Shown here: positions 16,686-34,214 of the stretch, one piece after another
How positions within the stretch are numbered: the stretch's first letter is position 1
Layout: each line of letters begins with the position of its first letter
Assembly (NCBI RefSeq): GCF_003925875.1
Contig: NZ_AP019309.1
Coordinates: 186,001 to 250,000, forward strand
Origin: Intestinibaculum porci
Lineage (GTDB): Bacteria; Bacillota_I; Bacilli_A; Erysipelotrichales; Coprobacillaceae
DNA length: 64,000 nucleotides
Direction: 5' to 3'
Position numbers and translations under genes: made by a program
Notes under the pieces: model-generated
Databases searched by the model: none
What the model was told of the DNA's origin: nothing
The model's input: the letters and a program-made list of their open reading frames with translations, nothing else

Positions 16686-16737
16686 TGATGAGTGTAAGCT
16701 CTGGTAAAGTATCACTCATCATGTTCCAAAGAACATG
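16686..16737 (+). promoter_or_regulatory. Two leader hairpins overlapping the DUF6431 gene start
   Basis: A 9-bp perfect stem (TGATGAGTG at 16686-16694 with CACTCATCA at 16713-16721) is followed by a second 7-bp stem (CATGTTC at 16720-16726 with GAACATG at 16731-16737) whose right arm contains the ATG of the next gene. A similar GATGAG/CTCATC hairpin precedes the second copy of this gene (30829-30861). Confidence 0.5.
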
Positions 16738-17608: not shown

Positions 17609-18540
17609 CCAAAAAGAATAAACATATGTCACTAAGCGATCGTATTGTGATCGAATCAGGCATTAGAGAAGGCTGTTCCAAGGCTGAAATAGCCAAAAGA
17701 ATCGGCAAGAGTCCATCAACCGTCGGAAAGGAAATCAAGCGTAACCTTCACATTACTCATAGATTCACTCTTCCAAGGGAATGTGCAGCTTATAAACACT
17801 GTAAACGCGGACGCACCTGTGAAAATGACTGCCCTGATTTCGTTCAGTATATATGCTTAAGAAGGGACAGATCACCTGGTGCCTGCAATGGCTGCTCTAA
17901 GTATTCTCACTGCAGATTTACCAAGTATACATATACGGCTAAAGCAGCAGAAAGCAATTACCGTGTAAACATGAGAGTCCCCAGAGAAGGCGTTAACATG
18001 AAGTATTCAGAGGCTCATCGTATGGCTAAGATTATCGGACCTCAGCTTAAGCGGGGAATGTCCCCTTATGCCATTGTCACTAACAATCCTCAGCTTGGCA
18101 TTTCCGAAAAAACTCTTTACAACTACATTGAAGAAGGAGTGTTTGAGGAAGACGGAATCGACTGCACTTGCCTAAGACGACAAACCGGCAGAAAAATGAC
18201 CAAGAAACGTAAGCAAATGTACAAAAAGAGAAAAGATAGATCTTATCTTAAAGGCCGTACATGGGATGTGTTTCAGGAGGCCTTGAAGGAGAACCCTGAC
18301 GCTTCAATCCTTGAGATGGATACAGTTTATTCAAACGAAACGAATGGACCGTTCATGCAGACGTTCAAGTTTATTGATTTTGGACTCCTGATGGAGGTAT
18401 ATCACGATACAAAGACCGCTCAAGCTATGGTTGACGGCCTTAACTATTTGGAAGGTATCATTGGAAGAGATCTATTTAGCAAGTATGTGACCTTTATAGT
18501 TACTGATTATCACACAAAAATATTTAACCCGAAGATTTAA
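17605..18540 (+). pseudogene. IS30-type transposase, 5' part (copy A), cut at the catalytic Asp
   Basis: The first 300 or so residues of an IS30-family DDE transposase. An N-terminal HTH (SKAEIAKRIGKSPSTVGKEI) leads into a Cys-rich region (CKRGRTCENDCPDF, CNGCSKYSHC) and the first catalytic Asp (ILEMDTVYSNE). The sequence is homologous up to the second catalytic motif, Thr-Asp (ACT GAT at 18502-18507). From the GAT onwards it enters the terminal repeat of the RIT element and ends 11 codons later. The missing part (TDRGSEF to the end) is at 33816-34214. TTG start at 17605. Confidence 0.85.
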
Positions 18541-18593
18541 AAAAGCGATGAATTTATCAACACTTTCATAAATTTCTTCGGGTTAATCAATTT
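18505..18593 (+). repeat. Left terminal inverted repeat of RIT element
   Basis: 89 bp that match the reverse complement of 24878-24966 with six mismatches and no gaps. Inside it, TTAACCCGAAGA (18524-18535) and TCTTCGGGTTAA (18575-18586) form a perfect 12-bp inverted pair around a 39-bp spacer, a layout suited to binding two recombinase protomers. Confidence 0.88.
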
Positions 18594-18646
18594 TTCCTGT
18601 ATACTGAAATTAAAGAAGGGAGCATACAAACAGGAGATAATATGAA

Positions 18647-18743
18647 GTGACCTCCCTAAGAGTTGTCAAACTGTGAATTTATACTCATAATAAATAGTAG
18701 CAAAAAATAAAAGAGTTATCACAGGATAACAACAGGAGGTCAC
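18647..18743 (+). promoter_or_regulatory. Leader hairpin covering the IS110 transposase ribosome binding site
   Basis: GTGACCTCC (18647-18655) is the exact reverse complement of GGAGGTCAC (18735-18743), which includes the AGGAGGT ribosome binding site of the IS110-type transposase. A smaller hairpin, GTTATC/GATAAC (18715-18730), lies between them. The structure could hold back translation until the element is mobilised, or be part of the element's guide RNA region. Confidence 0.5.
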
Positions 18744-18809
18744 CATGAAAAGTATAGTTTATATTGGAGCAGATGTCCATAAGGATACCTATAGTTTATG
18801 TGCTGTAGA

Positions 18810-20044
18810 CGTGTTGTTAACAATTTAGTGACTTGGTATGATTTTTAGTTGATAGCGCACAATTTAATATCTCTCTACGAGTCATAAATTCCATTAACTT
18901 TATTTTTACAGATCAAATATACTATTGCTAAACTTAAATATACTTTCTTTACTGAGTTGGCGAATGTAGAAATATTGCTGATGCTGTCTCAGCATCCCTA
19001 AAAGCTTTGTAACTTTCTCGCTGATATTGAGTTTTCTGAAATTATATTGGATCATAAATAACGAGTTATATCTATTTATATACTTTGTAGATATATTTCT
19101 ATAATAGATGATTTCTGATTCAATAAATGAATGAAGTCCATTTACAGTATTCAAATGATCAGTTTTTGTATACTCATCGAGTTTTAGATGCTTTACGCCG
19201 CAATTTCGTTTTTTCAGACTCCAGTCATAAATATTGATACCATCTATAAAGCAGTAGCTTTCTTTATCAATATGCTGACAAAATTCATAGCCATTCACGT
19301 CAGTAGGTCGACCGGTATTATAGGTGTGAATAAATGTATTTCCGCCTCGGGAAACTACGGTCATAATACATACTAGAATATCAGTTATGCCTGGTTTCGG
19401 TGCTATTGATCCATGTTTTCGAGGATCAACGCCTTCCAGCTTGGTCCCTTTATGACTCGCCAGGATGTACTTCTCATCTATTTCAGCTACATCACCTACA
19501 GAATCATTAGCTAGGATCATTTCAATGAAATGAAGTAGCTTATGACGCATTCTAAATACAGTTACATAATGCACACCGATTTTGAATGCAGTTTCGCGTA
19601 AAGCTAAACCGTTGAGTGTATCTTTAAGAACAATTTTCCACTTTGAAAGGCTCTGATGTGAATAGAAAGTTAATTGACCGGTATCCGCTACAAAGCGTTT
19701 ATTACAGCTTTTACATCTATACATTTGCTTGCCACTTTTTGTGTGTCCTGCTTTGATCATTTTAGGATGTTTTTCAGGACATTTTGGGCAATGCTCTATG
19801 ATAGGTGTAGACGCAGTTTCATTAGCTTCAATATACTCCTCAACCATATCAAGAATCTGTTCAATTTGAAATTGATCTAGTTTAATATTAGATAAGTTAG
19901 CAGCAATGTTTTGAATTTCCATATTAATACCTCCAGGTACTATATATTTTAGCAAATATACATATATCCTGATGTTCAATACATCGCTTGAAAGGGATAA
20001 ATACGGAGCTTATATGTGAAAGTCACTTATTTGTTAACAACACG
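18810..20044. mobile_element. IS1595-type insertion sequence, complete
   Basis: 1235 bp. The ends are inverted repeats: CGTGTTGTTAACAA plus a variable triplet plus AGTGACTT, 23 of 25 positions matching between 18810-18834 and 20020-20044. It is flanked by an 8-bp direct duplication GCTGTAGA (18802-18809 and 20045-20052), the size expected for the IS1595 family. It has one transposase gene on the minus strand. Confidence 0.92.
18906..19922 (-). CDS. IS1595-family transposase
   Basis: A 338-residue transposase. The N-terminal zinc ribbon has CPKCPEKHPKMIKAGHTKSG followed by YRCKSCNKRF. It leads into a helical region (LNGLALRETAFKIGVHYVTV) and an ISXO2-like DDE domain: VAEIDEKYIL for the first acidic residue, the DKESYCFIDGINIYDWS segment for the second, and LNTVNGLHSFIESEI for the N/E end. 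The start at 19922 lies six bases after GGAGGT; an upstream in-frame ATG at 19979 is not needed. No frame damage is visible, so the element may be active. It runs opposite to the interrupted IS110 gene. Confidence 0.9.
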   Translation of the reverse strand: MEIQNIAANLSNIKLDQFQIEQILDMVEEYIEANETASTPIIEHCPKCPEKHPKMIKAGHTKSGKQMYRCKSCNKRFVADTGQLTFYSHQSLSKWKIVLKDTLNGLALRETAFKIGVHYVTVFRMRHKLLHFIEMILANDSVGDVAEIDEKYILASHKGTKLEGVDPRKHGSIAPKPGITDILVCIMTVVSRGGNTFIHTYNTGRPTDVNGYEFCQHIDKESYCFIDGINIYDWSLKKRNCGVKHLKLDEYTKTDHLNTVNGLHSFIESEIIYYRNISTKYINRYNSLFMIQYNFRKLNISEKVTKLLGMLRQHQQYFYIRQLSKESIFKFSNSIFDL

Positions 20045-21146
20045 GCTGTAGAAGGCGCTACTGGAGCTATTATTTTAGAAAATAAAGTAAATGCTAGTGC
20101 AAAGAAGATTGAAGGATTTATTGACAAAATCAAAGGCATGAGAGTTGATCTTAATGATGCTGATTTCATTGTTGGCTATGAGTCCGGCTGCTTAGGTTAT
20201 TCACTTTGTAGAGAACTGAAGGATCTAGGAATTGAATGTGTTATTTTAGCAACTTCAACGATCCAGGGAGCCGCTAAAAACAAAGTAGTTAAAAACGATA
20301 GAATGGATGCGCGTATGATCGCAACCAATATCAATAACTCACAATGTAAAAGAGTTCACATTCCAACACCTGAAGAAGAAGCAGTTGCTAATTACATGAA
20401 AATGGTTGATCAGCATAAAAATGCACTAAAAGTTATTAAGCAGGAAATAAACGCTTTCGTACTTCGCTTAGGCTTTAGATTCCCTGGCAAGAGTACATGG
20501 ACTTTAAAGCATATTAAATGGCTTCGCGAGCTAGATCTGGATGGCTATAACAAGCTGACTCTTGAAGAATATCTACACGATTATGAGACAGCCAAAAATA
20601 ACTTGGAAAGACTTGAACAGAGTGTTGTTGAGCTTTCACAAGATGAAAAGTACAAGGAAAAAGCTGATAAGCTTAAATGCTTTAAGGGTATTAAGGAGAA
20701 GACTGCTATGACTATGATTGCCAACACCTTTGATTTTGACCGATTTAATAGTGCCAATGCTTTCGCTGCTTATCTTGGTTTAGTGCCTGGTGAGAATTCC
20801 AGTGGTCAAAAGGAGAACAATACCTCGATCACCAAGATGGGAAACAGCTATATGAGAAAAGCAATGGTAGAAGCAGCAAGAGCATGTGTTAAAGGTAAAA
20901 TTGGTTATAAAGGCAAAGCATTAAAGGCAAGACAGGCAGGTATGAGTGCAGAAATTATCGGCTATGCGGATAAAGGGACTGAACGTATTCAAAGGAAATA
21001 TCACAAACTTTTAAACCGAGGTATGCCTTTAAATAAGGTTATTACAGCCTGTGCAAGAGAGTTTTCATGCTTTGTATGGGGAATGATGACTGGAAACATC
21101 TATTAGCAAAAAAGTTACTCACACAAGGAACTATTCTTAGTAATGG

Positions 21147-21547
21147 TTATTCACAAATCTACTTATTGCCTGTCTGGTGAACATATCGGATAGGAAAAGA
21201 CTAAATATTAAAAGAAAGGAATGAAGTGCAGTCAGAGAAAATAAAACATCGATGACATAGATGAGTCTCAAAATGGATAGCAGGTCTGGCTATCTACGTT
21301 TCACCTCTGAAGGATCAGCATTGGGTGATATACGGCCATATGGAGCCCATAGACGCTGATAATCCGCGCTAGGAGATTATAGGGCCTTTTCGACTGGACC
21401 ATTAACATGCTTAATCCACGAATAACAGGTTGGTTAACTGTCGAATAGATCTACTTTTGGGATTCTTCTATGTCATTGATGGAAAAACTGAATAAGAATC
21501 TGCAAAGTTATTCACAGTATGATTAAGATATTAAAGCTTTATCCACA
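21147..21547 (+). other. Three DnaA-box-like 9-mers
   Basis: TTATTCACA at 21147-21155 and 21508-21516, and TTATCCACA at 21539-21547, all on the plus strand and all fitting the TTATNCACA consensus. They lie in the gene-free stretch between the IS110 transposase and the first RIT recombinase. Whether DnaA binds here is unknown. Confidence 0.4.
21270..21400 (+). ncRNA. Candidate IS110/IS1111 bridge (seeker) RNA
   Basis: In the 441-bp gene-free region after the IS110-type transposase there are three consecutive hairpins: GATAGC/GCTATC (21276-21294), ATCAGC/GCTGAT (21314-21360) with an inner TGGG/CCCA pair and large internal loops, and ATAATC/GATTAT (21359-21380). A string of stem-loops with internal loops next to the transposase gene is the known form of the guide RNA of this family. 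The exact ends are not known. Confidence 0.45.
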
Positions 21548-22861
21548 ATGGTCAAGTGGGCTTACTGCAGAATAAAATGTGGATTCGATATGAAGTATAA
21601 ATTTTCTCTTGACAAAGGTCACTTCATAACAGGTGAGGAAATGTATACAGTTGCTGAACTGTGCGAACTATGTATGCAGGCAGCTATCAGTGAAGACTTT
21701 ACCGAGCTCACCAGAACACGCTATGAACGCACGGTAAAACGAATCTTAAAATTTGCCGAGAATCATGGATACGTTGAATTCAGCGAAGAGTTTGCTGAAG
21801 ATTATATCGCTAATGGTGGCTCTGATAATTACGGCTGCTATAAGGATGGAAGATATTCAAAACGTGATAGGCTTCGCTTTATGAATCTCTTTCGTGAACA
21901 AGTTTATGAAGGCCAGATAATTTTTCGTGTGTATGGAAAGACCAGACTTGAACCTGACACCGATTACTACCGCAATGAGCTGGAAATGTTTGTACGCTAT
22001 CTTCATGCTACCGGCATTGAAGAAAATACAGTACTTGCATATAGATTTCCAGTATATAGGATGTTTCAATACTATGAGATCAATCAGATAATGGACACGT
22101 CACAGATCACTGTTGAAAGCATGCCGGACTTGTTCGAATACCTTAATCGGTTCTTCAGTCCGCATGGAGGGCTGAAAAACGCTTTATGCGGTCTAAGAGC
22201 TTATGCAAGATATGCCGAGCGTGACGATCTTCTTTCATTCTTCAGCACGCTGAAGCCAAGATCTGAAAAGAAGATCATTCCCTGCCTGAATAATGAAGAG
22301 CGTGAATCATTAGTGGATGTCCTATATTCAGGCGATATTCTTCTGCGTGACAAGGCTATCGTTCTTCTCTCTCTGACGATTGGCATAAGAGCGTGCGATA
22401 TTATTGCCCTTGAATTTGATAATATTGACTGGCATTCAGGTACAATTTCATTTGTTCAGGAGAAAACAAATAATCCCGTCAATGATCCAGGACTTGCAGC
22501 CGTTCTTAATGCCATTTATGACTACATCGTCAATGAGCGGCCAAGAGTGTCATGCAAAAATATTTTTCTCAGAAGTTTTGCACCCTATCGCCCGCTTACT
22601 GATCATTCAGCGATTTACGGCATCATCAAAAGAGTCTTTACGAAAGCCGAAATATCATTTGATAAAAGAATATGCGGTACGACATTTCTGCGTCATAACG
22701 TCACCACCCATATGCTAAGACAGAAAATACCCCAGGAAGTCATCGCATCAGTTGTCGGACATGCAGATGTTAATACAACGAGCATTTACATGAGCGCCGA
22801 TGACAAGGAAATTGCGGAGTGCATGCTTCCAATGATCAAGTGTGGTGTTACGGATGAGTGA
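21548..22861 (+). CDS. ritA: RIT tyrosine recombinase A
   Basis: A 437-residue tyrosine recombinase, first of the trio. N-terminal SAM-like DNA-binding helices occupy about residues 40-250. In the catalytic domain the first Arg is in TIGIRACDIIALEFDNIDW, the lysine hairpin carries QEKT, box II reads TFLRHNVTTHML, then VVGHADVNTTSIYM with the nucleophilic Tyr. The first position of the usual HxxR box is Thr, not His. The start could be ATG 21548 or ATG 21590; neither has a good ribosome binding site. The stop overlaps the start of the next gene by 8 bases. Confidence 0.85.
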   Translation: MVKWAYCRIKCGFDMKYKFSLDKGHFITGEEMYTVAELCELCMQAAISEDFTELTRTRYERTVKRILKFAENHGYVEFSEEFAEDYIANGGSDNYGCYKDGRYSKRDRLRFMNLFREQVYEGQIIFRVYGKTRLEPDTDYYRNELEMFVRYLHATGIEENTVLAYRFPVYRMFQYYEINQIMDTSQITVESMPDLFEYLNRFFSPHGGLKNALCGLRAYARYAERDDLLSFFSTLKPRSEKKIIPCLNNEERESLVDVLYSGDILLRDKAIVLLSLTIGIRACDIIALEFDNIDWHSGTISFVQEKTNNPVNDPGLAAVLNAIYDYIVNERPRVSCKNIFLRSFAPYRPLTDHSAIYGIIKRVFTKAEISFDKRICGTTFLRHNVTTHMLRQKIPQEVIASVVGHADVNTTSIYMSADDKEIAECMLPMIKCGVTDE

Positions 22862-23855
22862 AGTTATTTTTAAAAGCAGTATGGCCGAGAAGATTGAAGG
22901 CTTCATAAGGTTTAAGCGCAGCCAGGGATACAAGTATGATGTAGCACCCATATACACCCTTAGATATTTTGATGAATACTGCCTCACTCATGGCAACCCG
23001 ACTGAATACAGCGAGCGGCTTGTCACCGGCTTTATAATCCATTTTCAGGAAAAGAGAAATTTTAAAAAATGTGACTTCATCAGCACACTGAGGGAAATGG
23101 GATCTTATTTACGTGCCACAGGTAATTCATCTGCTTATGTTCCCGGCAAGGAATTTCAGACCAAAAGGCATGTAAAGAACGTCTACGTAATGTCAGAAGA
23201 GGAAATTATCGCCTTCTTTGGTGAGATGGATAGATACTACTATGAAAAACGTGATGATCAGAGCGTCTGTCATTGTGGAAGAAATTTTGTCTATCCAGCA
23301 TACTTTCGTCTTCTCCATGCAACAGGTGTTCGAACATTTGAAGCCAGATGGCTGAAGTCATCTGATGTAAATCTTGATCAGAAGTACATTGATATAATGA
23401 ACTCCAAGGGAAACAGGGACAGAAGGCTCTACATCAGAGATGATCTTGCTGACTATCTTATCAAGTATCATGAACAGATCATTAGAATGTTTCCTGATAC
23501 GGAATGGTTTTTCCCGTCTGTAGAAGGAATGAAATGTGAAAATGCTGGAGCCTTTGCTGCATTCTTCAATAAAATTTGGAAAAAAACGCCATTTTACATT
23601 GAAGGTGCCAAGCATCCGACGCCGTATTCGCTGCGCCACCATTTTGCAACGGCCAACATTATTAGATGGGCCTCCAACGGCGAGGATGTTCATGCTCATC
23701 TCCCATACCTGATGAGAGCCATGGGACATAGTGAAATTGAGGCTACGTATTATTACGTGCATCTGGTCCAGGAGCACTATGGAATGATTAAAGAAAAGTG
23801 TTCAGAACTCGAAGATCTGTTTCCAGAGGTGATCAAATATGATGAAAATTTCTGA
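22854..23855 (+). CDS. ritB: RIT tyrosine recombinase B
   Basis: A 333-residue tyrosine recombinase, second of the trio. Catalytic features: ATGVRTFEARWLKSSDV (Arg I), the lysine hairpin NSKGNRDRRLYI, box II PYSLRHHFAT with Tyr in place of the first His, and MGHSEIEATYYYVHL (His and candidate Tyr). A CHCGRN motif precedes the catalytic core. The ATG at 22854 overlaps the ritA stop (ATGAGTGA), and the end overlaps ritC by 17 bases, so all three are co-translated. RIT recombinases are thought to act together in one complex; which one cleaves is not clear. Confidence 0.85.
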   Translation: MSEVIFKSSMAEKIEGFIRFKRSQGYKYDVAPIYTLRYFDEYCLTHGNPTEYSERLVTGFIIHFQEKRNFKKCDFISTLREMGSYLRATGNSSAYVPGKEFQTKRHVKNVYVMSEEEIIAFFGEMDRYYYEKRDDQSVCHCGRNFVYPAYFRLLHATGVRTFEARWLKSSDVNLDQKYIDIMNSKGNRDRRLYIRDDLADYLIKYHEQIIRMFPDTEWFFPSVEGMKCENAGAFAAFFNKIWKKTPFYIEGAKHPTPYSLRHHFATANIIRWASNGEDVHAHLPYLMRAMGHSEIEATYYYVHLVQEHYGMIKEKCSELEDLFPEVIKYDENF

Positions 23856-24867
23856 TGATTCGTTAAAGTTTTGGAAGATTTCACGTGACTATCTTCACAG
23901 CTATATCAGCCTGGTTTCTGGGTGCTCCAAAGAGACGCTCAGGTCGTATAAGACATCGATGAACAATTATATTGACTTCATCGAGAAAACATACGGAATT
24001 AAAAGGACTGAAATGACATTCGATATCTTCTCGCGTGATAAGTTTGAGGAATACATCAAATGGATGAAGACAGATAAGCAATATTCTGTTGACACAGTCC
24101 GACTGCGAATAAGTGCCATTAGATCCTTTCTTGAATATGCCGGATCTGTGGATATTGAACTGATGCATTATTATGTGTCAGTTGCCAAAGTTAAGCTTCC
24201 CCGAAAGGTGAAGAAACCAATTTTATATCTGACAAAGGAAGAAATGAAGGCAATCCTTTCTGCTACGGATGGCGATACGAAACTTCATCGAAGAGATAGG
24301 ATCATTGTCATCCTTCTCTATGCTCTCGGCTGCAGAGTATCTGAAATTACCAGCCTCATGCTATCATCATTACACCTGAACTGTAATGACCCATATGTAG
24401 TCGTTCATGGTAAAGGAAATAAAACGAGACATGTGCCAATATTTGATAATACAATTGATCATCTGAATGAATACATCAGGGAATATCATCCTGATAATGT
24501 GGAGGCGCCTTTATTTTATTCTTATTACAGGGGTGATAAGCGAGAGCTTTCTGATGACACCATTGAACGTGTTTTAAAAAGAGCCGCTGATGTCGCAAGA
24601 AAAGAATGTGAGTCAATTCCTATGAAAATCCATGTGCATCTTATAAGAAAGACACGTGCAATGCATCTGTTTCAGCAGGGAATACCGCTTATTCTTATAT
24701 CCCAAATGCTCGGCCATGAACAGGTTTCTACAACAACAGGTTTCTACGCATTTGCGACTTATGACATGATGGTGAATGCAGTAAAGAAAGCCAATTCTGA
24801 TCTTGCGGAAGAGCCTGTTAAATACAATGTAAAGGATATTGAAGAATATCTCTGTACGCTGGACTGA
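23839..24867 (+). CDS. ritC: RIT tyrosine recombinase C
   Basis: A 342-residue XerC/D-like recombinase, third of the trio, and the only one with a fully canonical active site: LGCRVSEITSLML (Arg I), VHGKGNKTRHVPI (Lys), HLIRKTRAMHLF (HxxR), MLGHEQVSTTTGFYAFA (His and Tyr). The N-terminal SAM-like domain includes RSYKTSMNNYIDFIE. It begins within the end of ritB and stops 10 bp before the right terminal repeat (24878). Confidence 0.88.
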   Translation: MMKISDDSLKFWKISRDYLHSYISLVSGCSKETLRSYKTSMNNYIDFIEKTYGIKRTEMTFDIFSRDKFEEYIKWMKTDKQYSVDTVRLRISAIRSFLEYAGSVDIELMHYYVSVAKVKLPRKVKKPILYLTKEEMKAILSATDGDTKLHRRDRIIVILLYALGCRVSEITSLMLSSLHLNCNDPYVVVHGKGNKTRHVPIFDNTIDHLNEYIREYHPDNVEAPLFYSYYRGDKRELSDDTIERVLKRAADVARKECESIPMKIHVHLIRKTRAMHLFQQGIPLILISQMLGHEQVSTTTGFYAFATYDMMVNAVKKANSDLAEEPVKYNVKDIEEYLCTLD

Positions 24868-24877
24868 ACAATATGAT

Positions 24878-24966
24878 AAATTGATTAACCCGAAGATATT
24901 TTTGAAAGTGCCGATAAATTCATCGCTTTTCTAAATCTTCGGGTTAAATATTTTTGCGTGATAATC
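24878..24966 (-). repeat. Right terminal inverted repeat of RIT element
   Basis: The reverse complement matches 18505-18593 at 83 of 89 positions. It contains the same inner inverted pair (TTAACCCGAAGA and TCTTCGGGTTAA as read on the plus strand, 24885-24896 and 24936-24947, the inner one varying at the last bases). Confidence 0.88.
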
Positions 24967-25754
24967 TGTTAATATAGAACCTATATTATCGATAAATACA
25001 TCAGGACCCAGAAGGTTTTCAATATAGTCGATGCCCTTCACCATTTCCTCAGCTGTCTTCTCATCATGATAGACTGCCAGGAATACGCCACCGGGCATAA
25101 TTTTAAAGGTCTGAATAAATGGGCCATTGGAAACATCGTTATAGACAGTATCCATTAGGATATAGCCAACGGGATGATCCATCACCTGATCAGTATTCTT
25201 GCCGTCATCATCATGGATCTTCACGCTATGATTGATGTTATACTGTGCGGCCACCAGCGGGTTGTAATCAAGAAAGTCCTTGAACGTTCTGCCGATAAGA
25301 TAGCTGCTGTCCTTACGCTTTCTGTACTGATTGGCACGTGCCTTGGGCATCTTCCTTCTCTTGACCTGGTTTCTCAGATCAAGACAGTTGATTCCAAACT
25401 GTTCAAAGGCACCCATCTCAATATAGTTGTAGAGACACTTCTCAGAAATATTGAGCTCCGGATGCTCAGTAATAATGGCATATGGAGACTTGCCCTGTTC
25501 AAGCTCCGGCTTGATGATGTCGGCCATCCACTGAGCCTCTGAATAGGTGAGGTTAAAGCCGGTTCTTGAATCCTTTAGCGTGTACTCGTACGCCCTCTGG
25601 GCGGCTTCCGCTCTGTAGTAGTACTTAGTGAACCTGCAGCTGGGTGCCTTAGGACATCCGTTGCAGACGCCAGGCGATCTGTCCCTTCTGTTGCACCTGA
25701 ACTTCTCATAGTCAGGACAGTCAGGAGGATCCTGACGCTCGGCCTTGCATGATC
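24967..25754 (-). pseudogene. IS30-type transposase copy B, middle part
   Basis: On the minus strand from 25754: KAERQDPPDCPDYEKF, CNGCPKAPSCRFTKYYYRAE, NLTYSEAQWMADIIKPELEQ, EKCLYNYIEMGAFEQFGINC, the first catalytic Asp in YILMDTVYNDVSNGPF, and VFLAVYHDEKTAEEMV, ending at ILTD where the RIT terminal repeat begins (Asp codon 24964-24966, shared with the repeat). It continues the fragment at 29443-29694, from which it was separated by the IS66-type insertion. It encodes about 40 more residues before the Asp motif than copy A does in the same place (insert around NPLVAAQYNINHSV). The 3' end of the gene is absent here. Confidence 0.85.
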
Positions 25755-25846
25755 GTAAGCGTATGAGGTAATATCCATGAAATTAGTTATGCCTTCTATT
25801 AGAATTATTAATGTATCAAATTATTCTAATAGGGAGGCTTTTGCAT

Positions 25847-26269: not shown

Positions 26270-26600
26270 AGAACTGACAGGCATCAAAAGAATTGTAATA
26301 AGAACCGGAAAGACTGATCTGCGCAGAGGCATTACCGGTCTGGCTTCAGTTATAGCCGCTGAATATCATATGAATCCGATGGAAAAAGGAACCATTTATC
26401 TTTTCTGCGGTGGCAGAAGAGATCGTATCAAGGGGCTTCTTTACGAAGAAGGCGGATGGGTTCTTATCTATGTCCGACTTTCAAAAGGAAGTGCCTTTCA
26501 GTGGCCTAGAGATGATCAGGAAGCTCGTGATATAACGCGTGAACAGTACGAAAGACTGTTGGACGGATTTACTTTGGATGGTACAATAAATAAGCGCTGA
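26262..26600 (+). CDS. tnpB: IS66 TnpB (Orf2) accessory protein
   Basis: A 112-residue IS66 Orf2 family protein (PF05717). Seen: RIVIRTGKTDLRRGITGLAS, then GTIYLFCGGRRDRIKGLLY, followed by the FQWPR block. This small protein is required for transposition in studied IS66 elements, with unknown mechanism. Translationally coupled to tnpA. Confidence 0.93.
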   Translation: MLRELTGIKRIVIRTGKTDLRRGITGLASVIAAEYHMNPMEKGTIYLFCGGRRDRIKGLLYEEGGWVLIYVRLSKGSAFQWPRDDQEARDITREQYERLLDGFTLDGTINKR

Positions 26601-26681
26601 TAAAGGAAATATCACTCCTCTGATGGTAATTCAAAACTGAACAATATAGTGATATTATATTCGCTTAATATCACTATTATC

Positions 26682-26710
26682 TTGAATTTTAGTCTTCATA
26701 GTGTTATAAT
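26682..26710 (+). promoter_or_regulatory. Promoter inside the IS66-type element
   Basis: TTGAAT (26682-26687), a 17-bp spacer, and a perfect TATAAT (26705-26710). It lies in the 133-bp gap after tnpB and would drive the extra gene and tnpC separately from tnpA-tnpB. Confidence 0.7.
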
Positions 26711-26733
26711 AGTATATAGGACGAGGTGATGGA

Positions 26734-27102
26734 ATGGCTATCATCAAACAGACCAACAAGACTACAGGCATTACCTATGTCTACGAGTCTAAGAGCTACT
26801 GGGATCCTGAAAAGAAGCAGGCTCGCTCCAAGCGAAAGCTGATCGGAAAAATTGATCCCGAAACCGGCAAAATGGTCCCCACCGGCAAAAAAGGTCCACA
26901 GAAGAAAAAGAGCGGAGAACCTTCAGCTGCCGAGAGGAGACAGTCAGCCGAATTAGCCAGACTGAAAAAGGAAAATATGGATCAGATGATATTAATCACT
27001 GATCTTCGCAAGCAGATAGAATCATTAAGCAGCCAGAACACAAAATTAAAGCAGCTGATTAGTGAGATCAGACAGCTAACCGTATCGTCAGAGGAGATCT
27101 AA
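26734..27102 (+). CDS. Extra IS66-associated protein with basic N-terminus and coiled coil
   Basis: A 122-residue protein between tnpB and tnpC. The N-terminal 60 residues are rich in Lys/Arg (TGITYVYESKSYWDPEKKQA, then RSKRKLIGKIDPETG) and look like the N-terminal domain that starts many IS1634/IS4-related transposases. The C-terminal half is a leucine-zipper-like coiled coil (LARLKKENMDQMILITDLRK). The ATG follows GAGGTGATGG and has its own promoter upstream. It is not part of the classic three-gene IS66 plan and may be an accessory for DNA binding. Confidence 0.7.
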   Translation: MAIIKQTNKTTGITYVYESKSYWDPEKKQARSKRKLIGKIDPETGKMVPTGKKGPQKKKSGEPSAAERRQSAELARLKKENMDQMILITDLRKQIESLSSQNTKLKQLISEIRQLTVSSEEI

Positions 27103-27112
27103 ACGTAACACT

Positions 27113-29011
27113 ATGAAGGCAGACAGCGCATATTTTAAACAGCAACTGAATAAAATGAGTTATGCGGACCTGATTGCGGTTGCTTTAAAATATTATGAAG
27201 AGTGCTGCGGATTACGTGCCGAACTGGATGAATTAAAAAACACATTCAGCTACACAGCCGATGAGCTTAAGAAGGTTAAAGCCGAATGCGAAGATCTAGT
27301 TATAAGAGTTAACACTCTTAATCATGAGAATACCAGACTTCAGAATCAGACGGATGAGCTCAAAAAGAATCGCTTTGGAAGAAAGTCTGAAAAGATGAAT
27401 GGCAAAATCCACGATGATGAGTTTAGCGACCCTCTTTCGGAAGAAATGAATGAAAGCGACTGTGATGGTAAAAAACAGAATAATAATGACAGCCAAAAAT
27501 CCAGGAAAATAAAAAGACCTGCCTGCAGGCAGCTAAACAGGAAAAAGAAGACCAGACAGATACCAGAAATAACGATTATTGACTTTGACAGGGAGCGTAT
27601 CGATAAAGAATACGGCTACGGCAAATGGACATTAAAAGGCTGGAACATATCCGAAGAATTTATGTTTATTCCAGGAAATCTCTACAGGGTATATGTCAAA
27701 CGCCCAGTGATCAGAGTCTATGACGATGATGATACTAATGATTTACGCGAAGTGGCACTGCCGGTTAATAAGCTGATGTTAAGGAGCAAGGTTACGCCTT
27801 CACTGCTGGCTTTTATCATGTCTTTCAAATTTGTGCTGGGAGTTCCCCTGGCAAGGCTGTCAAGGGTTCTGTCATATCAGGGAATCAACCTGTCAAAAGA
27901 GATAATGTCAGACTGGGTCATTAAATGCACTGACAGATATCTAAAGCCAGTCTATAGCGAGATAATGAGACAAATGGCCTGCCGGACATACACCCAGATT
28001 GATGAAACCTATCTGGAAGTCATCAATGACGGAAGAAATGCGGGAAGCAAAAGCTACATATGGTGTCATATCACTGGCGAATTTGAAGAAGAGCGGCCGC
28101 TGGCAGTCTTCTGCTTCGAGCTGACAAGATCAGCGGATCACCTTCTTGAGTTCTATGCGGATCTTAACGACGGCACAATCCATCTGACATCTGATGCCTA
28201 CAGCGCCTATTATAAGCTGGCTTCGGAGAAAAAGGATCATGTAATACTCGGCGGGTGCTTTATGCATCTGAGACGCAGACTGTACAAGGCATATGAAGTG
28301 AAATTTAAAGCGGTAAAGGATAAAGAGCTTCTTGAGGAAAGCCCCGAAAAAAAGTGTCTCGATATGATCGGTGATCTTTACAGCGCTGATGATGATGCCA
28401 AAGAACTTACCGCCAAGGAAAGAGCTAAAGTCCGAGACGAAATCGAAAGACCGCTTGTCGATGCATACTTTGATTATATCAAGTCCCTTGATATCAGCAG
28501 CGGCACTTTTAGTGAGGAAATGGAGGATGCGGTGAGCTACAGCCTCAATCATGAGGATGCATTCAGAGTGTTTCTTGATGATCCAATGGTTCCAATCGAT
28601 AACGGTGAATGCGAACGCAAGATTCGTAATATAGCCATGGTCAGAAACAATAGTCTGTTCTGCTATTCCATCGGCGGCGCTGAAACGCTCTGCATCATTA
28701 TGACGCTTATTGAAACTGCCAAGTCAAACGGCTGCGATCCGCATACGTATCTGGAATATCTTTTCGAAAGCTCACTTGCCCATGCCAGCGTCGATATTAG
28801 CGAATATATCGATGAGATGATGCCCTGGTCAAGCGAATACCAAAAATTCGAGGAAGAGAGGTTCAGCAGACCGTTAGGGAAAATACCAGACTTCTGCACT
28901 GAAGAGCCTGAAATGCCAGTTAAAGCTGATGTGGATACTGCAAGAGCTGAAAGACGACACGCAATGATGACAGAAAATATAAATAGCACAACATCCAGGC
29001 CAGCGGCTTAA
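27113..29011 (+). CDS. tnpC: IS66 transposase TnpC
   Basis: A 632-residue IS66 DDE transposase. An N-terminal coiled coil and zinc-finger-like area (ELKKNRFGRKSEKM, the common IS66 signature) precede the domain with MSFKFVLGVPLARLSRVLSY and SKEIMSDWVIKC. Catalytic acidic residues are in TQIDETYLEV, HLTSDAYSAYYKL and VPIDNGECERKIRNIAMVRN, and the end has CIIMTLIETAKSNGCDPHTY. The reading frame is complete. It starts at ATG 27113, 10 bases after the stop of the small gene upstream. Confidence 0.95.
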   Translation: MKADSAYFKQQLNKMSYADLIAVALKYYEECCGLRAELDELKNTFSYTADELKKVKAECEDLVIRVNTLNHENTRLQNQTDELKKNRFGRKSEKMNGKIHDDEFSDPLSEEMNESDCDGKKQNNNDSQKSRKIKRPACRQLNRKKKTRQIPEITIIDFDRERIDKEYGYGKWTLKGWNISEEFMFIPGNLYRVYVKRPVIRVYDDDDTNDLREVALPVNKLMLRSKVTPSLLAFIMSFKFVLGVPLARLSRVLSYQGINLSKEIMSDWVIKCTDRYLKPVYSEIMRQMACRTYTQIDETYLEVINDGRNAGSKSYIWCHITGEFEEERPLAVFCFELTRSADHLLEFYADLNDGTIHLTSDAYSAYYKLASEKKDHVILGGCFMHLRRRLYKAYEVKFKAVKDKELLEESPEKKCLDMIGDLYSADDDAKELTAKERAKVRDEIERPLVDAYFDYIKSLDISSGTFSEEMEDAVSYSLNHEDAFRVFLDDPMVPIDNGECERKIRNIAMVRNNSLFCYSIGGAETLCIIMTLIETAKSNGCDPHTYLEYLFESSLAHASVDISEYIDEMMPWSSEYQKFEEERFSRPLGKIPDFCTEEPEMPVKADVDTARAERRHAMMTENINSTTSRPAA

Positions 29012-29283
29012 CAGCCGCCGGCCTAGGAGTGCTTGTTTTGGGTTTTATTAATATCCCGGGCAAAAAGAATTGCCTTAATCGATTAATATGCAGCCTGCTG
29101 AAGACAGCTGAAAGATCATAAATCTATGCAAACACTAACCAGACATAGTACCGCTAGCAGATCAGACTATGAAGTTATATCTTTATTACACTGATCCAGC
29201 CCGCAGCAGCCTTCAGGCATAACAAAAAAGTAAAATCAATACTCTGAATAAGATGTCATTAATATAACTTAGCCAAATTAAAC

Positions 29284-29323
29284 ACCCCCGGCAACACTGT
29301 TAGCAGCAGTAGCTGGGGGATTT
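29284..29323 (+). terminator. GC-rich hairpin near the 3' end of the IS66-type element
   Basis: CCCCC (29285-29289) pairs with GGGGG (29315-29319), extended by the neighbouring GC pairs, around a 25-base loop and followed by ATTTCC. The 431 bases between tnpC and the element end hold no other clear feature. Confidence 0.5.
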
Positions 29324-29442
29324 CCATTAAAAGTTATATTTATTCAAGTTAGAGAGTAACCGGTTTAAAATCAAAAATCATGCTTATATAGATTTTAAAT
29401 TATCATAATTTTGTAATTATGGATATTTAATCTAACGCTTAC

Positions 29443-29694
29443 GCATGATCTGCCGTGCTTGCATTTCTTGTAGTTGGCGCATTCATGAGGAGCCTTGCAG
29501 GGGGATCCCGAAATGATTCTATGATTCTTGATCTCCTTGGCGACGGTTGTCGGGTCCTTATTAATGACCTTGGCAATCTGAGCCTTGTTAAGGCCATTCT
29601 TGGTACCGTCCTCGATCGTCACACGAACCTTAAGGTTCATGTGCTTCTGATAGCCGCAGGTCTCGCTGTTACTTTTTCCCATTACTATCACCAT
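29443..29694 (-). pseudogene. IS30-type transposase copy B, N-terminal part
   Basis: On the minus strand, MVIVMGKSNSETCGYQKHMN, then VTIEDGTKNGLNKAQIAKVI, a helix-turn-helix like that of copy A (KAQIAKVINKDPTTVAKEI), and the Cys region ANYKKCKHGRSC. The homologous part stops at the cysteine encoded by the 8-bp duplication (29443-29450), where the IS66 end follows. It continues at 25754. Overlaps the upstream small gene by 26 bases. Confidence 0.85.
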
Positions 29695-29875
29695 CCTGCA
29701 GACTCATGCGGTAGCAGTACTCAAATACCGTATAGGGATAGAGCCTTCTCATTAATGAGTCCTCATCGATTCCGGAGCGCCTTCTGCTGCGTTTCCTTCC
29801 GCTTGAAGGGTGACCGGCCCCTCTGTCTTCCTGACCTGCTTTTGAAGCGGTCAGCTTATCACTAATATCTGACAT
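29669..29875 (-). CDS. Small accessory protein of IS30-type element (copy B)
   Basis: A 68-residue basic protein (SDISDKLTASKAGQEDRGAG, then SSGRKRSRRRSGIDED and RRLYPYTVFEYCYRM). Start at ATG 29875, eight bases after AAGGAGGTGG. It holds the same place as the acidic 72-residue protein of copy A but is hardly similar to it. Function unknown. Confidence 0.55.
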   Translation of the reverse strand: MSDISDKLTASKAGQEDRGAGHPSSGRKRSRRRSGIDEDSLMRRLYPYTVFEYCYRMSLQDGDSNGKK

Positions 29876-29909
29876 TTTTAATGCCACCTCCTTGATGTTC
29901 TTCTTGCTT

Positions 29910-30809
29910 TCAGGCAGTTTCCTGCTTCTCTACAAAGAAATTTAACACTTTAGGGGCGTGGAGGCAGTTTTCCCATGTTGGTGAGGCAAAAACCCCTTCA
30001 GGCCCGAGGTGGCAACTTTTTAGGCTCTTGCCGGTGAGGCCGATCTTCTCCGTCATGAATCTGTTCCTGTAAAAAAAGGCAAAGTGACCGGTGATAAATG
30101 AGCAGATGAGTTTAGAAAGTAAGCTGTCACTTGCCTTGCCGCCTTGAAGCCTGCAGCAGAGATGATTAAGAAGCCTGCCCAGACGGCCGTGAAAGGCTTC
30201 AGGCCGAACATGATCATGAAAAATCAGATGCAGGCATAAATGGATGTCAAAAAGATTTTCCTTTATGAAGGGTATGACTCCAGGAGGAAATATTGCATGG
30301 GTCTTGCCGAGCTTTTTTGAATAGATGCGCTGTACCTGAAACGCATATGGGGTGTCGACGATGTTTACGGTCTTTTTATAGTGGCCGTATTTTATCCAGT
30401 CGCTGGCACCCTCATCGGAAAGGCCGGGAGTCATTTCAGCTATGTCCTCTGCCGAGAAGCTGGCAAGGATATATGAATAGGCGGCATTGATAAAAAGCAT
30501 GATGTCATAAGCAAGCTCAGTTGATGAAAGCTTGGTGCTGTAGAGCTTTTCTGTCAGCCCGGAAAAGAATGAACCGTCAGAGCGTGCTAGAAGGTCTGCA
30601 GAAAAGCTGTTGTTCCATAGGCACTCTGAACTGTAGCTAAAAAAGCTGTCATCAGATCCGCAGTCAGCGCTGCTCTGATTTCTTATTGATCTTCTGAAGA
30701 TGGACATAACATTACTTTTGATTGTATCTTCGCTCCTGTGAGCGTTCTTGGCTAAAAGCCTGCTGATGCTTTTGCACTTGAAAACAGGCGATTCATGTAT
30801 TACTATCAT
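29910..30809 (-). CDS. DUF6431-like transposon accessory protein (copy B)
   Basis: A 299-residue protein related to the one at 16735-17406. Shared blocks include SDWIKYGHYKKTVN and FQVQRIYSKKLGKTH followed by a hydrophobic PGVIPFIKENLF. It also has a longer N-terminal region (CKSISRLLAKNAHRSEDTIK) and a C-terminal extension. First gene of the inverted IS30-type element, with a leader hairpin upstream. It has no known biochemical role; its constant position suggests a part in regulating or targeting transposition. Confidence 0.65.
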   Translation of the reverse strand: MIVIHESPVFKCKSISRLLAKNAHRSEDTIKSNVMSIFRRSIRNQSSADCGSDDSFFSYSSECLWNNSFSADLLARSDGSFFSGLTEKLYSTKLSSTELAYDIMLFINAAYSYILASFSAEDIAEMTPGLSDEGASDWIKYGHYKKTVNIVDTPYAFQVQRIYSKKLGKTHAIFPPGVIPFIKENLFDIHLCLHLIFHDHVRPEAFHGRLGRLLNHLCCRLQGGKASDSLLSKLICSFITGHFAFFYRNRFMTEKIGLTGKSLKSCHLGPEGVFASPTWENCLHAPKVLNFFVEKQETA

Positions 30810-30828
30810 ATTGTCTTAATCGGACAGG

Positions 30829-30861
30829 TGATGAGAAGCTTACCAGGGCATTAACTCATCA
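30829..30861 (-). promoter_or_regulatory. Leader hairpin upstream of DUF6431-like gene, copy B
   Basis: GATGAG (30830-30835) pairs with CTCATC (30855-30860). On the minus strand the loop contains CTGGTAA, as does the loop of the copy A hairpin (16686-16721), and the distance to the start codon is similar. The 339 bases between 30810 and 31148 otherwise hold only the promoter of the next gene. Confidence 0.45.
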
Positions 30862-31074
30862 TCTTTTTTTGTCCTCTGCCTCCAAACTGAATTTAATCCT
30901 TCAATTATCAAACATGTTAATTTTATCACATTTTGAAATAACTGAACGAGTAAATTCATGAAAGACATTAGGTTCCAGAAGTGAATGACATAATTCATAT
31001 TAGAAATGTCTAACTGGAATTTCGAAAATCATTTGACGTTATATATTCATAATTAAATTTATCTTCCTCCCTCA

Positions 31075-31103
31075 TTTTCAGTTTATTAGAGATGTAGTAT
31101 AAT
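31075..31103 (+). promoter_or_regulatory. Promoter of the secreted cargo protein gene
   Basis: TTTTCA (31075-31080), a 17-bp spacer and a perfect TATAAT (31098-31103), 45 bp before the start codon. Confidence 0.5.
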
Positions 31104-31148
31104 GTATTTATATTAATACAAACATTGATAAATTGAGAGGAGGTTACT

Positions 31149-33431
31149 ATGAACAAGATTATGACAATGGTGTTGTCTGTTATGATAATGATTACAATGC
31201 TGTATACTCCGGTATATGCATCAGATAACAGCACTGAACAAACATATGAACTTAGTGGTATAATTGCTGAAGATACTGTTTTAGATAAAACGGATGGGAA
31301 ATACGTAATTACAAGTGATGTTTCAATCAAAAATGGCAGTACAGTAACAATTAAACCAGGTGTAACTGTTGAAGGAAATAATTTCAGGATAAGGGTTTAT
31401 GGGAAAATAGACATTAATGAAGCTAATTTTAATAATGTACAGTTGGAGGCAGATAATACAGGATCTGATCCATGTACCATTACTATGAACAAAAGTACAT
31501 ATATTGGCGGAAGACTATTGTATCCAACAGGATACTCTGCTCACGTCTATTTGAATTTAACAAATAATAGGTTCTATAACTTGGAAGGGTACAGCTACAT
31601 ATGGTATCCTGCAGATGTTGCTTATATTACGGGAAACTATTTTGAAAATTGTGGTGCTCTAAGCATAGGTAGCGAAGAGGATGTGTATGTAACTAACAAC
31701 ACCTTTTATCATATGCATGCATTATCAAATGGCGATAAATATATTATAGAGGACTGGGCACAATATTACTCCAATCTTTATGTTGAAAAAAACAGCTTTT
31801 ATGATGATTCCCTGGTTCTGAAGTTAAGCTCAGATGGGAAGATGATAGCTAAAAACAATTTTTGGAACACAACTTCTTCTAGTTCCATTTCATCACGGAT
31901 TAGTGATGGAAACACAAATTTGAACTTGAAAGAAACCATTGAGTACGAACCATTCCTTACAGAGCCAGATCCTAATTCTCCTAATATAGAACATTTATAT
32001 AATGATGGCGAAATAACGGTTCAGCCAACGTGTCTTGAGGATGGGGAGAAGACGTATACGTGTTTAAGCTGTGGCGAGACTAAGACAGAAACCATCCCGG
32101 CGCTCGGTCATAAATGGAGGGAAGATTACACCGTAGATAAAGAACCATCCTGCACAGAGGTTGGAAGTAAATCTATACATTGTTCGGTTTGTAATGCTAT
32201 TAAAGAGGGTACAACAGTTGAAATACCTGCACTTGGTCATGCTTGGAGTGATCCAATTTTTGACTTCAGTTCTGATGGTAAAACAGCGACAGCAACAAGA
32301 ATATGCATTAACAATTCAATTCATAAAGATACCAAAGATACTACTATTACTAGTCAAGTAACGAAGGAACCAACCTGTGAAGAAAATGGTGAAACTACTT
32401 ATACTGCGAAAGTCACATTTGATGGAAAAGAGTATTCTGATACGAAGAAGTTAGTGGACATTGCGGCAATCGGCCATAAATGGGGTGATGTTTCCTACGT
32501 TTGGTCAGATGACAATAGCAAGTGCACGGCGACCAGAATTTGTCAGAATGACAACAGTCATAAGCAGGCTGAAACAGTAGGTACAACATCAGAGACGACA
32601 AAAGCAACCTGCGAGACAGCTGGAAAGACGATCTACACTGCGAACTTTGGTAATGAGGTATTCAAAACCCAGAATAAAACAGTAAAGATCGAAGCGATCG
32701 GTCATGATTTTTCCGATGAGTGGACAATCGATCGTGAAGCAACTTGCACAGAGAATGGAATCAAATCGCATCATTGTTCAAGGTGTGATGCAAAGTCTGA
32801 CGTAACAGAAATACTGGCATTTGGGCATTCGTATGTACCGGGAACCATCAAAGCGACTGTCACCACCGATGGAAAACATTTTGATAAATGTGAACGCTGT
32901 GGAAACGTTATAAATTTGATAAGCATCCCCATGGCATCAAATATTGGTCTGTCTGACACACAATATATCTGGGATGGTAAAGTTAAAACACCAACACTTT
33001 ATGTGAATGATTCAACAGGAAGAAATATTAGTACAGCTAACTACTCATTCACAGAGCCGTCTGGTAGGAATAACGTTGGTAAATACACTTATACTATCTC
33101 ATTCAGAGGGGATTTTTCCGGAACCATTAATCAGTCCTTTGCAATATACCCTGCTAAGGCTGCAATTAAGTCAATTAAGGCTGGCAAGAAGAGTATAACG
33201 GTTACTGCAAAGAAAAAGCCTGCTAAATATGGCGCAAAGTATATGCAGATTGCTTATAAGCTGAAAGGAACTAACAAGTGGAAGTACAAGACAACCACGA
33301 AAAACAAAAAGGTGGTAAAGAAATTAAAAGCAAAGAAGTACTATTATGTGAAGGTCCGTACATACAAAAAGGTCGGTAATGAGACTTATTATGGAGCGTG
33401 GTCTAAGCAGAAACGAGTTAAAGTTAAATAA
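31149..33431 (+). CDS. Large secreted protein: beta-helix plus repeated Cys-pair domains
   Basis: A 760-residue protein with a signal peptide (MNKIMTMVLSVMIMITMLYT, cut near VYAS). Residues about 60-270 look like a right-handed parallel beta-helix (DGKYVITSDVSIKNGSTVTI and repeated NN-F strands). Then come four or five copies of a short domain with CxxC pairs and an ALGHxW motif (PTCLEDGEKTYTCLSCGETK, IPALGHKW), a module common in surface proteins of gut Bacillota. The last 90 residues are an Fn3-like, very Lys-rich domain (SIKAGKKSITVTAKKKPAKY). There is no LPXTG signal, so it is probably released or bound by charge. Start behind GAGAGGAGG. It is cargo of the mobile island. Confidence 0.8.
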   Translation: MNKIMTMVLSVMIMITMLYTPVYASDNSTEQTYELSGIIAEDTVLDKTDGKYVITSDVSIKNGSTVTIKPGVTVEGNNFRIRVYGKIDINEANFNNVQLEADNTGSDPCTITMNKSTYIGGRLLYPTGYSAHVYLNLTNNRFYNLEGYSYIWYPADVAYITGNYFENCGALSIGSEEDVYVTNNTFYHMHALSNGDKYIIEDWAQYYSNLYVEKNSFYDDSLVLKLSSDGKMIAKNNFWNTTSSSSISSRISDGNTNLNLKETIEYEPFLTEPDPNSPNIEHLYNDGEITVQPTCLEDGEKTYTCLSCGETKTETIPALGHKWREDYTVDKEPSCTEVGSKSIHCSVCNAIKEGTTVEIPALGHAWSDPIFDFSSDGKTATATRICINNSIHKDTKDTTITSQVTKEPTCEENGETTYTAKVTFDGKEYSDTKKLVDIAAIGHKWGDVSYVWSDDNSKCTATRICQNDNSHKQAETVGTTSETTKATCETAGKTIYTANFGNEVFKTQNKTVKIEAIGHDFSDEWTIDREATCTENGIKSHHCSRCDAKSDVTEILAFGHSYVPGTIKATVTTDGKHFDKCERCGNVINLISIPMASNIGLSDTQYIWDGKVKTPTLYVNDSTGRNISTANYSFTEPSGRNNVGKYTYTISFRGDFSGTINQSFAIYPAKAAIKSIKAGKKSITVTAKKKPAKYGAKYMQIAYKLKGTNKWKYKTTTKNKKVVKKLKAKKYYYVKVRTYKKVGNETYYGAWSKQKRVKVK

Positions 33432-33438
33432 TCCATAT

Positions 33439-33469
33439 AAGCTCGGTCGGGAAACTGGCCGAGCTTTTG
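33439..33469 (+). terminator. Intrinsic terminator after the secreted protein gene
   Basis: AAGCTCGG (33439-33446) and CCGAGCTT (33459-33466) form an 8-bp perfect stem followed by TTTT. Confidence 0.85.
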
Positions 33470-33565
33470 AGGATTAATAGGGGCAAATAGGAAGGTTAAA
33501 ATCAATGGAATATTGAATAGACCAAAATATTATGCTAAGCTCGTGTCAGGAGAGGAGGAATGTCA

Positions 33566-33787
33566 TTGAGGGATGATAACAGAAAGGTGTCCTTATCAGA
33601 TTTTTATTGTGAGGATTGTGGCATTCGTTTGACACTTCCTCGACCCCGCAACAAGCAGAGAAACAATGGGCATATCAAAACCATGTGGTGCCCTAGATGT
33701 AGAAGGGAAACACAGTTTATTGAAGTAAGGGAATGCGACTTCGGTTTGGAGTATGTCAAGCAGTGGGAGGACCCTTTTATCGGGTAA
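33566..33787 (+). CDS. Small zinc-ribbon protein
   Basis: A 73-residue protein with two CxxC knuckles, FYCEDCGIRL and MWCPRCRRETQF, 29 residues apart: a zinc ribbon. The C-terminus is acidic and aromatic (FGLEYVKQWEDPFIG). AGGAGG (33553-33558) lies seven bases before a TTG (33566) but only one base before the in-frame ATG (33560), so TTG is the more likely start. It ends five bases before the palindrome that marks the right-hand breakpoint in the IS30-type transposase. Function unknown. Confidence 0.6.
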   Translation: MRDDNRKVSLSDFYCEDCGIRLTLPRPRNKQRNNGHIKTMWCPRCRRETQFIEVRECDFGLEYVKQWEDPFIG

Positions 33788-33791
33788 TAAT

Positions 33792-33817
33792 GTCTTAACC
33801 CGAATCCGGGTTAAGAC
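33792..33817. repeat. Perfect palindrome at the right breakpoint of the island
   Basis: GTCTTAACCCG (33792-33802) and CGGGTTAAGAC (33807-33817) around a 4-base centre. It shares the TTAACCCG core with the inner repeats of the RIT ends and lies directly against the Thr-Asp codons of the transposase 3' fragment. Confidence 0.7.
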
Positions 33818-34214
33818 AGACAGAGGCTCTGAGTTTACAGACGCTGAGCATCTTGAGCATAGACCTGATGGTTCATTTAGATGCCCGGTCTTCTACTGTG
33901 ATCCTATGCGTTCCAACCAGAAAGGATCACTGGAAAATAAGCATCATGAAGTCAGATATATATTTCCAAAATCAGAGAAAGATTTAAGAAAATTAGGACT
34001 GATCGATCAGGATTCGTTAAGAATAGCTGTTAATAACATCAACTCTTATGTGCTTAAGGATAAACACGGTAAAACACCATATGAAATCGTGCAGTTCGCC
34101 GCTCCAGATCTCTATGAGGCACTCAAGCAACATGGCTATCATCAGCTGGACAAAAACCAGATCAATTTGACTAAGCATTGTTTGCTTGACTATAAGAAAA
34201 AACATCAAAAATAA
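33816..34214 (+). pseudogene. IS30-type transposase, 3' part
   Basis: Begins at the second catalytic motif (TDRGSEFTDAEHLEH; Asp codon 33819-33821) and runs to the natural end: YCDPMRSNQKGSLENKHHEV with the catalytic Glu, RYIFPKSEKDLRKLGLIDQD and the tail KKKHQK. This is exactly the part missing from copies A and B. It lies on the plus strand, in line with copy A, so copy A (17605-18507) and this fragment read as the two halves of one gene split by about 15.3 kb. The frame is open upstream to 33753, but that part is not transposase sequence. Confidence 0.85.

Follow-up and report, generated by a model that had tools for sequence, protein, structure and literature searches.

Recombinase in trio elements and the conserved, mostly active-site, codons at which they break mobile genes

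Recombinase in trio (RIT) elements are, with high probability, site-specific integrative elements whose target, a 6-bp core with flanking arms, falls on the best-conserved motif of multicopy mobile genes, as a rule the active site of another mobile element's enzyme. We base this reading on a stretch of 64,000 nucleotides from Intestinibaculum porci (the window: bases 186001-250000 of a single-contig genome of 3.2 Mb), in which one such element lies among three fragments of IS30-type transposase genes, and on the relatives of that element. Known since 2009, RITs consist of three overlapping tyrosine recombinase genes with terminal inverted repeats and a palindrome at their ends (Van Houdt 2009/2012, Ricker 2013; PMC3414803); RitA has two core-binding domains and RitC an extra C-terminal helix (PMC8138268). 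Single insertions are on record in IS66 tnpA, radC and a Tn6049-type transposase gene (PMC2864759, PMC3414803), and the table of a 2023 paper lists target specificity as not tested (PMC10214605). What is added here is the 6-bp core, the core-palindrome-core layout and the targeting of active sites, of which an earlier account in Ricker 2013 is possible. A clear target rule (a 6-bp core on an active-site motif, clade-specific and exact) makes the mechanism directly testable and explains why RITs sit in broken transposase genes, with mobile DNA attacking other mobile DNA at its least changeable point.

Target codons and the form of the insertion

GTDB genomes were scanned once, with four aligned RitC proteins as query; this returned 80 loci, and flanks were readable at 63 (62 of the 80, plus L066, a same-family genome locus). 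At short or rearranged loci (L069, L092, L097-L099, L116, L136, L142, L144 and L147) the element ends escaped a generic inverted-repeat search. Motifs were assigned by patterns on the translated halves of the broken genes, and a few ambiguous cases (L113, L121) were set by eye. An active-site motif stood at the break in 59 of the 63 readable RIT-I-clade loci: Ser/Thr-Asp of IS3 or IS30 in 32, the Asp of rve-type transposases in 12, Tyr-Thr-Thr(-Asn), YTT(N), of IS256 in 11, and Tyr-Ala-Asp(-Asp), YAD(D), of group II intron reverse transcriptases in four. We take the catalytic status of these residues from established knowledge of the enzyme families, structure alignment being confined to the reverse transcriptase and IstA. 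Family profile scans, covering 38 five-prime and 33 three-prime halves, agree with the motif assignment; at L070, for example, the 5' half ends at position 282 of the IS3 profile and the 3' half starts at 281, while the half at L148 ends at residue 223 of the GsI-IIC reverse transcriptase (6ar1), within YAD|D, when aligned to the solved structure.

The first-pass annotation of the window had proposed that the RIT machinery recognises a conserved site inside transposase genes, and the breakage of the same codons at dozens of loci bears this out; because so many loci are hit there, chance is an untenable explanation for the shared breaks. Its restriction of the site to IS30 was too narrow, since IS30 genes are indeed hit but so are IS3, other motifs and elements, plasmid genes and a ribozyme. 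It had named insertions at unrelated sequences beforehand as evidence against itself; RITs do occur outside IS30 genes, but mostly at the corresponding catalytic codon.

The target motif is a clade trait of RITs. Mapped onto the RitC tree it requires four changes, the minimum possible, against a mean of 25.2 for shuffled motifs, none of 200 shuffles being as low. The window RIT falls, on a long branch, in the Ser/Thr-Asp clade, and two RITs that are 89% identical occupy genes of different families, IS30 at L082 and IS3 at L083.

Among 30 canonical loci, the palindrome lies on the side of the 3' half in all 30, while the RIT itself points either way (14:16). The cores within a locus agree at 3.0-3.2 of 4 bases, compared with 1.6 after shuffling (maximum 2.35). 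The exact junction is given by an E. coli plasmid RIT (L177) that breaks a plasmid DNA methylase at the Asp-Pro of VLDPFAGSG. Its flanks match, in some part of the query, 4,732 other E. coli records, of which three cover at least 80%. The empty site reads GTGCTG GACCCG TTTGCAGGC and the filled one GTGCTG GACCCG-palindrome-CGGGTC-RIT-GACCCG TTTGCAGGC, so that at L177 the core is exactly 6 bp, is duplicated, and no target bases are lost.

It is extremely unlikely that RITs insert widely and survive only in dispensable genes such as transposases, with purifying selection yielding the conserved codon as a side effect. The abundance and dispensability of transposase genes, which are general knowledge, are all that favours this view; such insertions, however, would scatter gene-wide rather than at the one codon seen, and both the clade-bound choice of codon and the exact core duplication speak against this explanation and for site-specific integration.

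More distant RITs on plasmids (22 loci from Proteobacteria, Actinomycetota and Firmicutes) extend the range of targets. Ends were not readable at L156, L160, L162, L164, L166 and L172-L175, and L165 and L176 were left out. Elsewhere, the break falls at the PQGG motif of a reverse transcriptase (L157, L171), at the catalytic Tyr of a tyrosine recombinase (L158), at PDN of IS21 IstA (L159, where the half reaches PDN when aligned to IstA 8q4d) and at LLLD of the IstB ATPase (L168, L169); L161 lies in IS256 and L167 in IS66. DDE transposases as sole targets were rejected, as a reverse transcriptase, a tyrosine recombinase, IstB, a methylase and a helicase are hit as well. The targets are conserved motifs of genes common on mobile DNA, mostly though not only transposon enzymes.

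A RitC search of the window's own genome found several further trios. RIT-II, present three times, breaks an ISL3-type transposase at Met-Asp-Glu; RIT-III, also with three copies, is found at Trp-Ala-His of IS66 TnpC. Of the single trios, one interrupts an IS1182-type transposase and another an rve transposase, at the Lys-Ile-Glu-Arg motif. RIT-V (L050, 4510-8060) directly follows group II intron domain V and splits it from domain VI, which makes a ribozyme the target. Domain V scores 30.1 bits against Rfam RF00029, where the gathering score is 40, a shortfall to be expected with domain VI cut away, and the flanks, once joined, form two hairpins where domains V and VI would lie; an assignment of this insertion to luxS was rejected on the identity of these flanks. 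Comparison of copies gives the order 6-bp core, RIT, inverted core, 20-bp palindrome (TTA...TAA), core, with RIT-II showing the mirror order. In one of three copies each of RIT-II and RIT-III the RIT is reversed while the order relative to the host gene is unchanged; the RIT-II palindrome is reversed too, whereas that of RIT-III is symmetrical, leaving a flip invisible.

Several minor features accompany these insertions. The ends of RIT-I-clade elements (e.g. L071, L107) extend the broken frame by about ten codons with a conserved peptide, D-YAEEKT..., and the truncated transposase retains its DNA-binding part and might be a repressor. Four contigs of 3.2-3.5 kb (L072, L081, L088, L146) end at or near RIT ends and may be collapsed repeats or possibly circular forms. 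At L177 a cargo ORF (open reading frame) of about 191 aa lies between ritC and the right end (7172-7747).

Spread between insertion sequences

RITs related to that of the window are mobile, judging from identical copies in different host genes. In Clostridium sp. Marseille-P2415, a 100% identical RIT of 3,352 bp sits at the Thr-Asp of different IS30-type genes, and similarity between the loci stops at the RIT boundary. In the window genome, not one mismatch separates the three RIT-II copies over 4,110 bp, against 0.36-0.77% between their hosts, and two RIT-III copies (L052 and L053) show 0 mismatches in 3,423 bp in hosts that differ by 1.29%; the difference between RIT and host divergence reaches a Fisher p of 3e-13. 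Because divergence is greater in the host flanks than in the RITs that they enclose, and because orientation differs between copies, the RITs would have entered after the insertion sequences had spread, and most likely spread recently into copies that had already diverged. A genome search for empty host copies found none for the hosts of RIT-II and RIT-III, two diverged insertion sequences.

These observations bear on whether insertion sequence and RIT might instead move as one composite, the insertion sequence being the vehicle. IS66::RIT-III and ISL3::RIT-II are bounded by 8-bp target duplications at different loci, and two loci of Blautia parvula carry an IS256::RIT with 99.5% identity over 4,965 bp. 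The much greater divergence of the host flanks in the window genome and the differing orientations nevertheless make joint movement a minority possibility beside separate entry into each copy, and the 8-bp duplications as proof of joint movement were rejected by the divergence test. One such composite, ISL3::RIT (L054, 4516-12255), lies near the 3' end of an IS30 copy with the target duplication TTTTTTGA, giving three nested mobile elements.

From these patterns we infer a circular intermediate and the roles of the three recombinases. The recombinases would excise a circle made of the RIT and the 20-bp palindrome, with two cores in inverted orientation, and the circle would insert at a target core, each RIT clade having its own target motif. 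This would give the observed order, 5' gene-core-RIT-inverted core-palindrome-core-3' gene, or its mirror in other clades, with the RIT either way round. Insertion breaks the host enzyme. Flipped RIT copies fit integration of such a circle via either of its two inverted cores. Since the active-site codons are the only stretch common to a family, one recombinase set could enter all copies of that family and related families too.

Several points weigh against so general a reading. Four of the 63 readable loci lie off active-site codons (L115 in IS66 TnpB; L093, L108 and L132 without assignment), one side of L105 is unexplained, and the IS256 breaks precede the catalytic Glu by five codons. In IS66 and IS1182 the broken motifs are conserved and may or may not be catalytic. 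Among the 22 plasmid RITs, targets were readable in only about half, and three of these are plasmid genes, not transposons (a helicase-type gene at L163, an uncharacterised protein at L170 and the L177 methylase). The query used in the survey was biased towards one RIT clade, and with near-copies among the loci, independent events are fewer than loci. Neither a circle nor an excision event was observed. Part of the identity among RIT copies of one genome could come from gene conversion, although alone it would not account for the flipped copies.

We lean slightly towards regarding RITs as homing-like hyperparasites, each lineage keyed to a single active-site motif, that enter every copy of a host element and switch that element off. 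If so, they could hold insertion sequences and group II introns in check naturally, and would show tyrosine recombinases that in nature have changed target motif many times over; the filled and empty E. coli pair, with the motif-switching clades, offers material for assays and for tracing such change. The 'safe haven' strategy that the first-pass annotation had suggested is plausible, but the more direct evidence is for a homing-like spread that reaches every copy of an insertion sequence.

Relation to known systems

Homing introns and inteins likewise have their insertion sites at the best-conserved codons or nucleotides of a gene family, all copies of which are targets. They splice out and spare the host product, whereas RITs break it and carry no recognised splicing element; RIT enzymes are, moreover, tyrosine recombinases, unlike those of homing introns and inteins. 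The Tn554 family, whose target is radC, differs from RITs in its gene set (tnpA, tnpB, tnpC) and its one fixed chromosomal target, and we know of no companion palindrome in it. Its likenesses, according to PMC10214605, are three recombination genes, a fixed target and a 6-bp exchange of flanking bases. Islands with three integrases, the GInts and SEs, as described in parts of PMC5385486 and PMC10214605, share with RITs 6-nt staggered cuts, a circular form and site-specific integration in a conserved gene, but have four conserved genes, including one for a ginC/tfp-type protein, and form larger islands with cargo. The GInt assayed there uses an ABC transporter gene, and those parts make no mention of a 20-bp companion palindrome for GInts or SEs.

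The mosaic island of the window

The window RIT and its surroundings comprise the following features.

16735-17406: upstream ORF of the copy A element, counterpart of the ORF at 29910-30809; intact elements are alike
17605-18506, plus strand: IS30-type transposase copy A, 5' half, an ORF with HTH_38 and IS30 profile matches, 50.5% identical to the intact copy, ending at Thr-Asp (TD of ILTDRGSEF; core TACTGA, 18501-18506)
18507-24964, plus strand: RIT element with terminal inverted repeats of about 100 bp; ends found by inverted-repeat search and aligned, architecture as in relatives
18507-18600, plus strand: RIT left end, with outer arm TTATCAC, second arm TTAACCCG 17 bp in and inner inverted arm at 18579
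21548-22861, plus strand: ritA, tyrosine recombinase of 437 aa (PF00589, E=4.6e-19)
22842-23855, plus strand: ritB, tyrosine recombinase of 337 aa (PF00589, E=8.5e-17)
23839-24867, plus strand: ritC, tyrosine recombinase of 342 aa (PF00589, E=6e-26), placed by the tree with the SD/TD-targeting clade
24870-24964, minus strand: RIT right end, the left end inverted (end search and alignment)
24965-25754, minus strand: IS30-type transposase copy B, 5' part, ending at Thr-Asp (core AACAGA, minus strand, 24965-24970); 85.6% amino-acid identity to the intact IS30 copy, 83% in nucleotides
25755-29443, plus strand: IS66-type element within copy B, with 8-bp target duplication GCATGATC
29444-29694, minus strand: N-terminal part of copy B (HTH_38 match)
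29910-30809, minus strand: upstream ORF of the copy B IS30-type element (69.5% nucleotide match, L054:13433-14948 against 29460-30988)
33789-33794, plus strand: inverted core AATGTC adjoining the palindrome, its position assigned by analogy with relatives
33795-33814, no strand: 20-bp RIT companion palindrome TTAACCCGAATCCGGGTTAA, on the 3'-half side as in canonical relatives (30/30)
33815-34214, plus strand: IS30-type transposase copy A, 3' half, starting at Thr-Asp (core GACAGA, 33815-33820); IS30 profile positions 195-263, 57.7% identical to the intact copy

The three rit genes are adjacent on one strand, with overlaps of 20 bp (ritA/ritB) and 17 bp (ritB/ritC), and all three match PF00589; the terminal inverted repeats that flank ritA and ritC are about 90% identical over 102 bp. 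The ORF list holds no further ORF between ritC and the right end, and so no fourth gene of ginC/tfp type. The element is a single copy in its own genome, and a same-genus search found no second one.

Copies A and B flank the RIT, on the left and right respectively, as inward-pointing 5' halves. The breaks had been placed correctly by the first-pass annotation at ACTGAT (18502-18507), ACAGAT (minus strand, 24964-24969) and ACAGAC (33816-33821), and by comparison with intact relatives the homology of all three fragments stops at Thr-Asp codons. Seven intact IS30-type relatives occur in the same genome, and those inspected there read ATCCTGACTGACAGAGGC, encoding ILTDRGSEF, at the break site. No intact DDE transposase is present among the three fragments, each being broken at the second Asp. 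The IS30 profile NF033563 scores E=1.5e-08 for copy A and 4.8e-09 for the 3' fragment, below the whole-protein cut-off, as expected for parts. Copy A and the 3' fragment together align along the whole intact protein, as had been claimed, and the 3' fragment is assigned to copy A rather than B because of their amino-acid identities to the intact gene (A 50.5%, 3' fragment 57.7%, B 85.6%).

An inverted-repeat core, TTAACCCG, had also been described at all breaks. This holds at the 3' fragment, the one place where it directly abuts the core, as the palindrome; next to copies A and B its first base lies 17 bp in from the end of the RIT, with copies at 18524, 18579, 24885 and 24940. It is missing within the elements at the intact-copy loci, in keeping with the expectation that intact IS30 genes lack the palindrome; one occurrence at L060 (position 201) is unrelated.

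How the mosaic arose can be proposed in outline. A RIT would have entered IS30-type genes at Thr-Asp, a later exchange between two occupied genes would have produced the 5'-RIT-5' arrangement, and a deletion would then have brought foreign DNA up against the palindrome and the 3' half of copy A. A RIT between two 5' halves is also seen at L077, L078/L079, L105, L117 and L169, so that two-half mosaics recur, as anticipated; exchange of two RIT copies followed by deletion appears the simplest account of the window mosaic, and the repeated insertion and inversion first suggested stays conjectural. The reciprocal product, carrying the 3' half of copy B, was not found in a search of the genome.

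We regard as unlikely an integron-cassette-like capture, in which the RIT took up the copy B half and the following 2.8 kb through a pseudo-core at 33789-33794. A palindrome with the inverted core AATGTC does adjoin the 3' half, and foreign DNA separates that palindrome from the RIT, but the pseudo-core matches other cores poorly and the two-5'-half mosaics at L077, L078/L079, L105 and L117 need only an exchange of two occupied genes. Very unlikely, too, is a local accident in which a single RIT landed in one IS30 gene and its junction was spread by homologous recombination or duplication. Copies A and B are nearly identical in RIT-end sequence, and inverted ends invite homologous recombination; against this, the two copies come from different genes (50% identity to the intact copy for A, 86% for B), and independent hits on the same codon span dozens of genomes and several enzyme families. 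As an explanation of the target rule the accident is refuted, while it may still describe the origin of the window mosaic.

Other DNA has entered the island. Between the RIT left end and ritA (18660-21500) lies an IS110-type element, itself split by an IS1595-type element (~18815-20045), and these insertions may cut the trio off from its promoter. Between copy B and the palindrome are a putative large surface protein of 760 aa (31149-33431) and, after it, a small zinc-ribbon-like ORF (~33560-33788).

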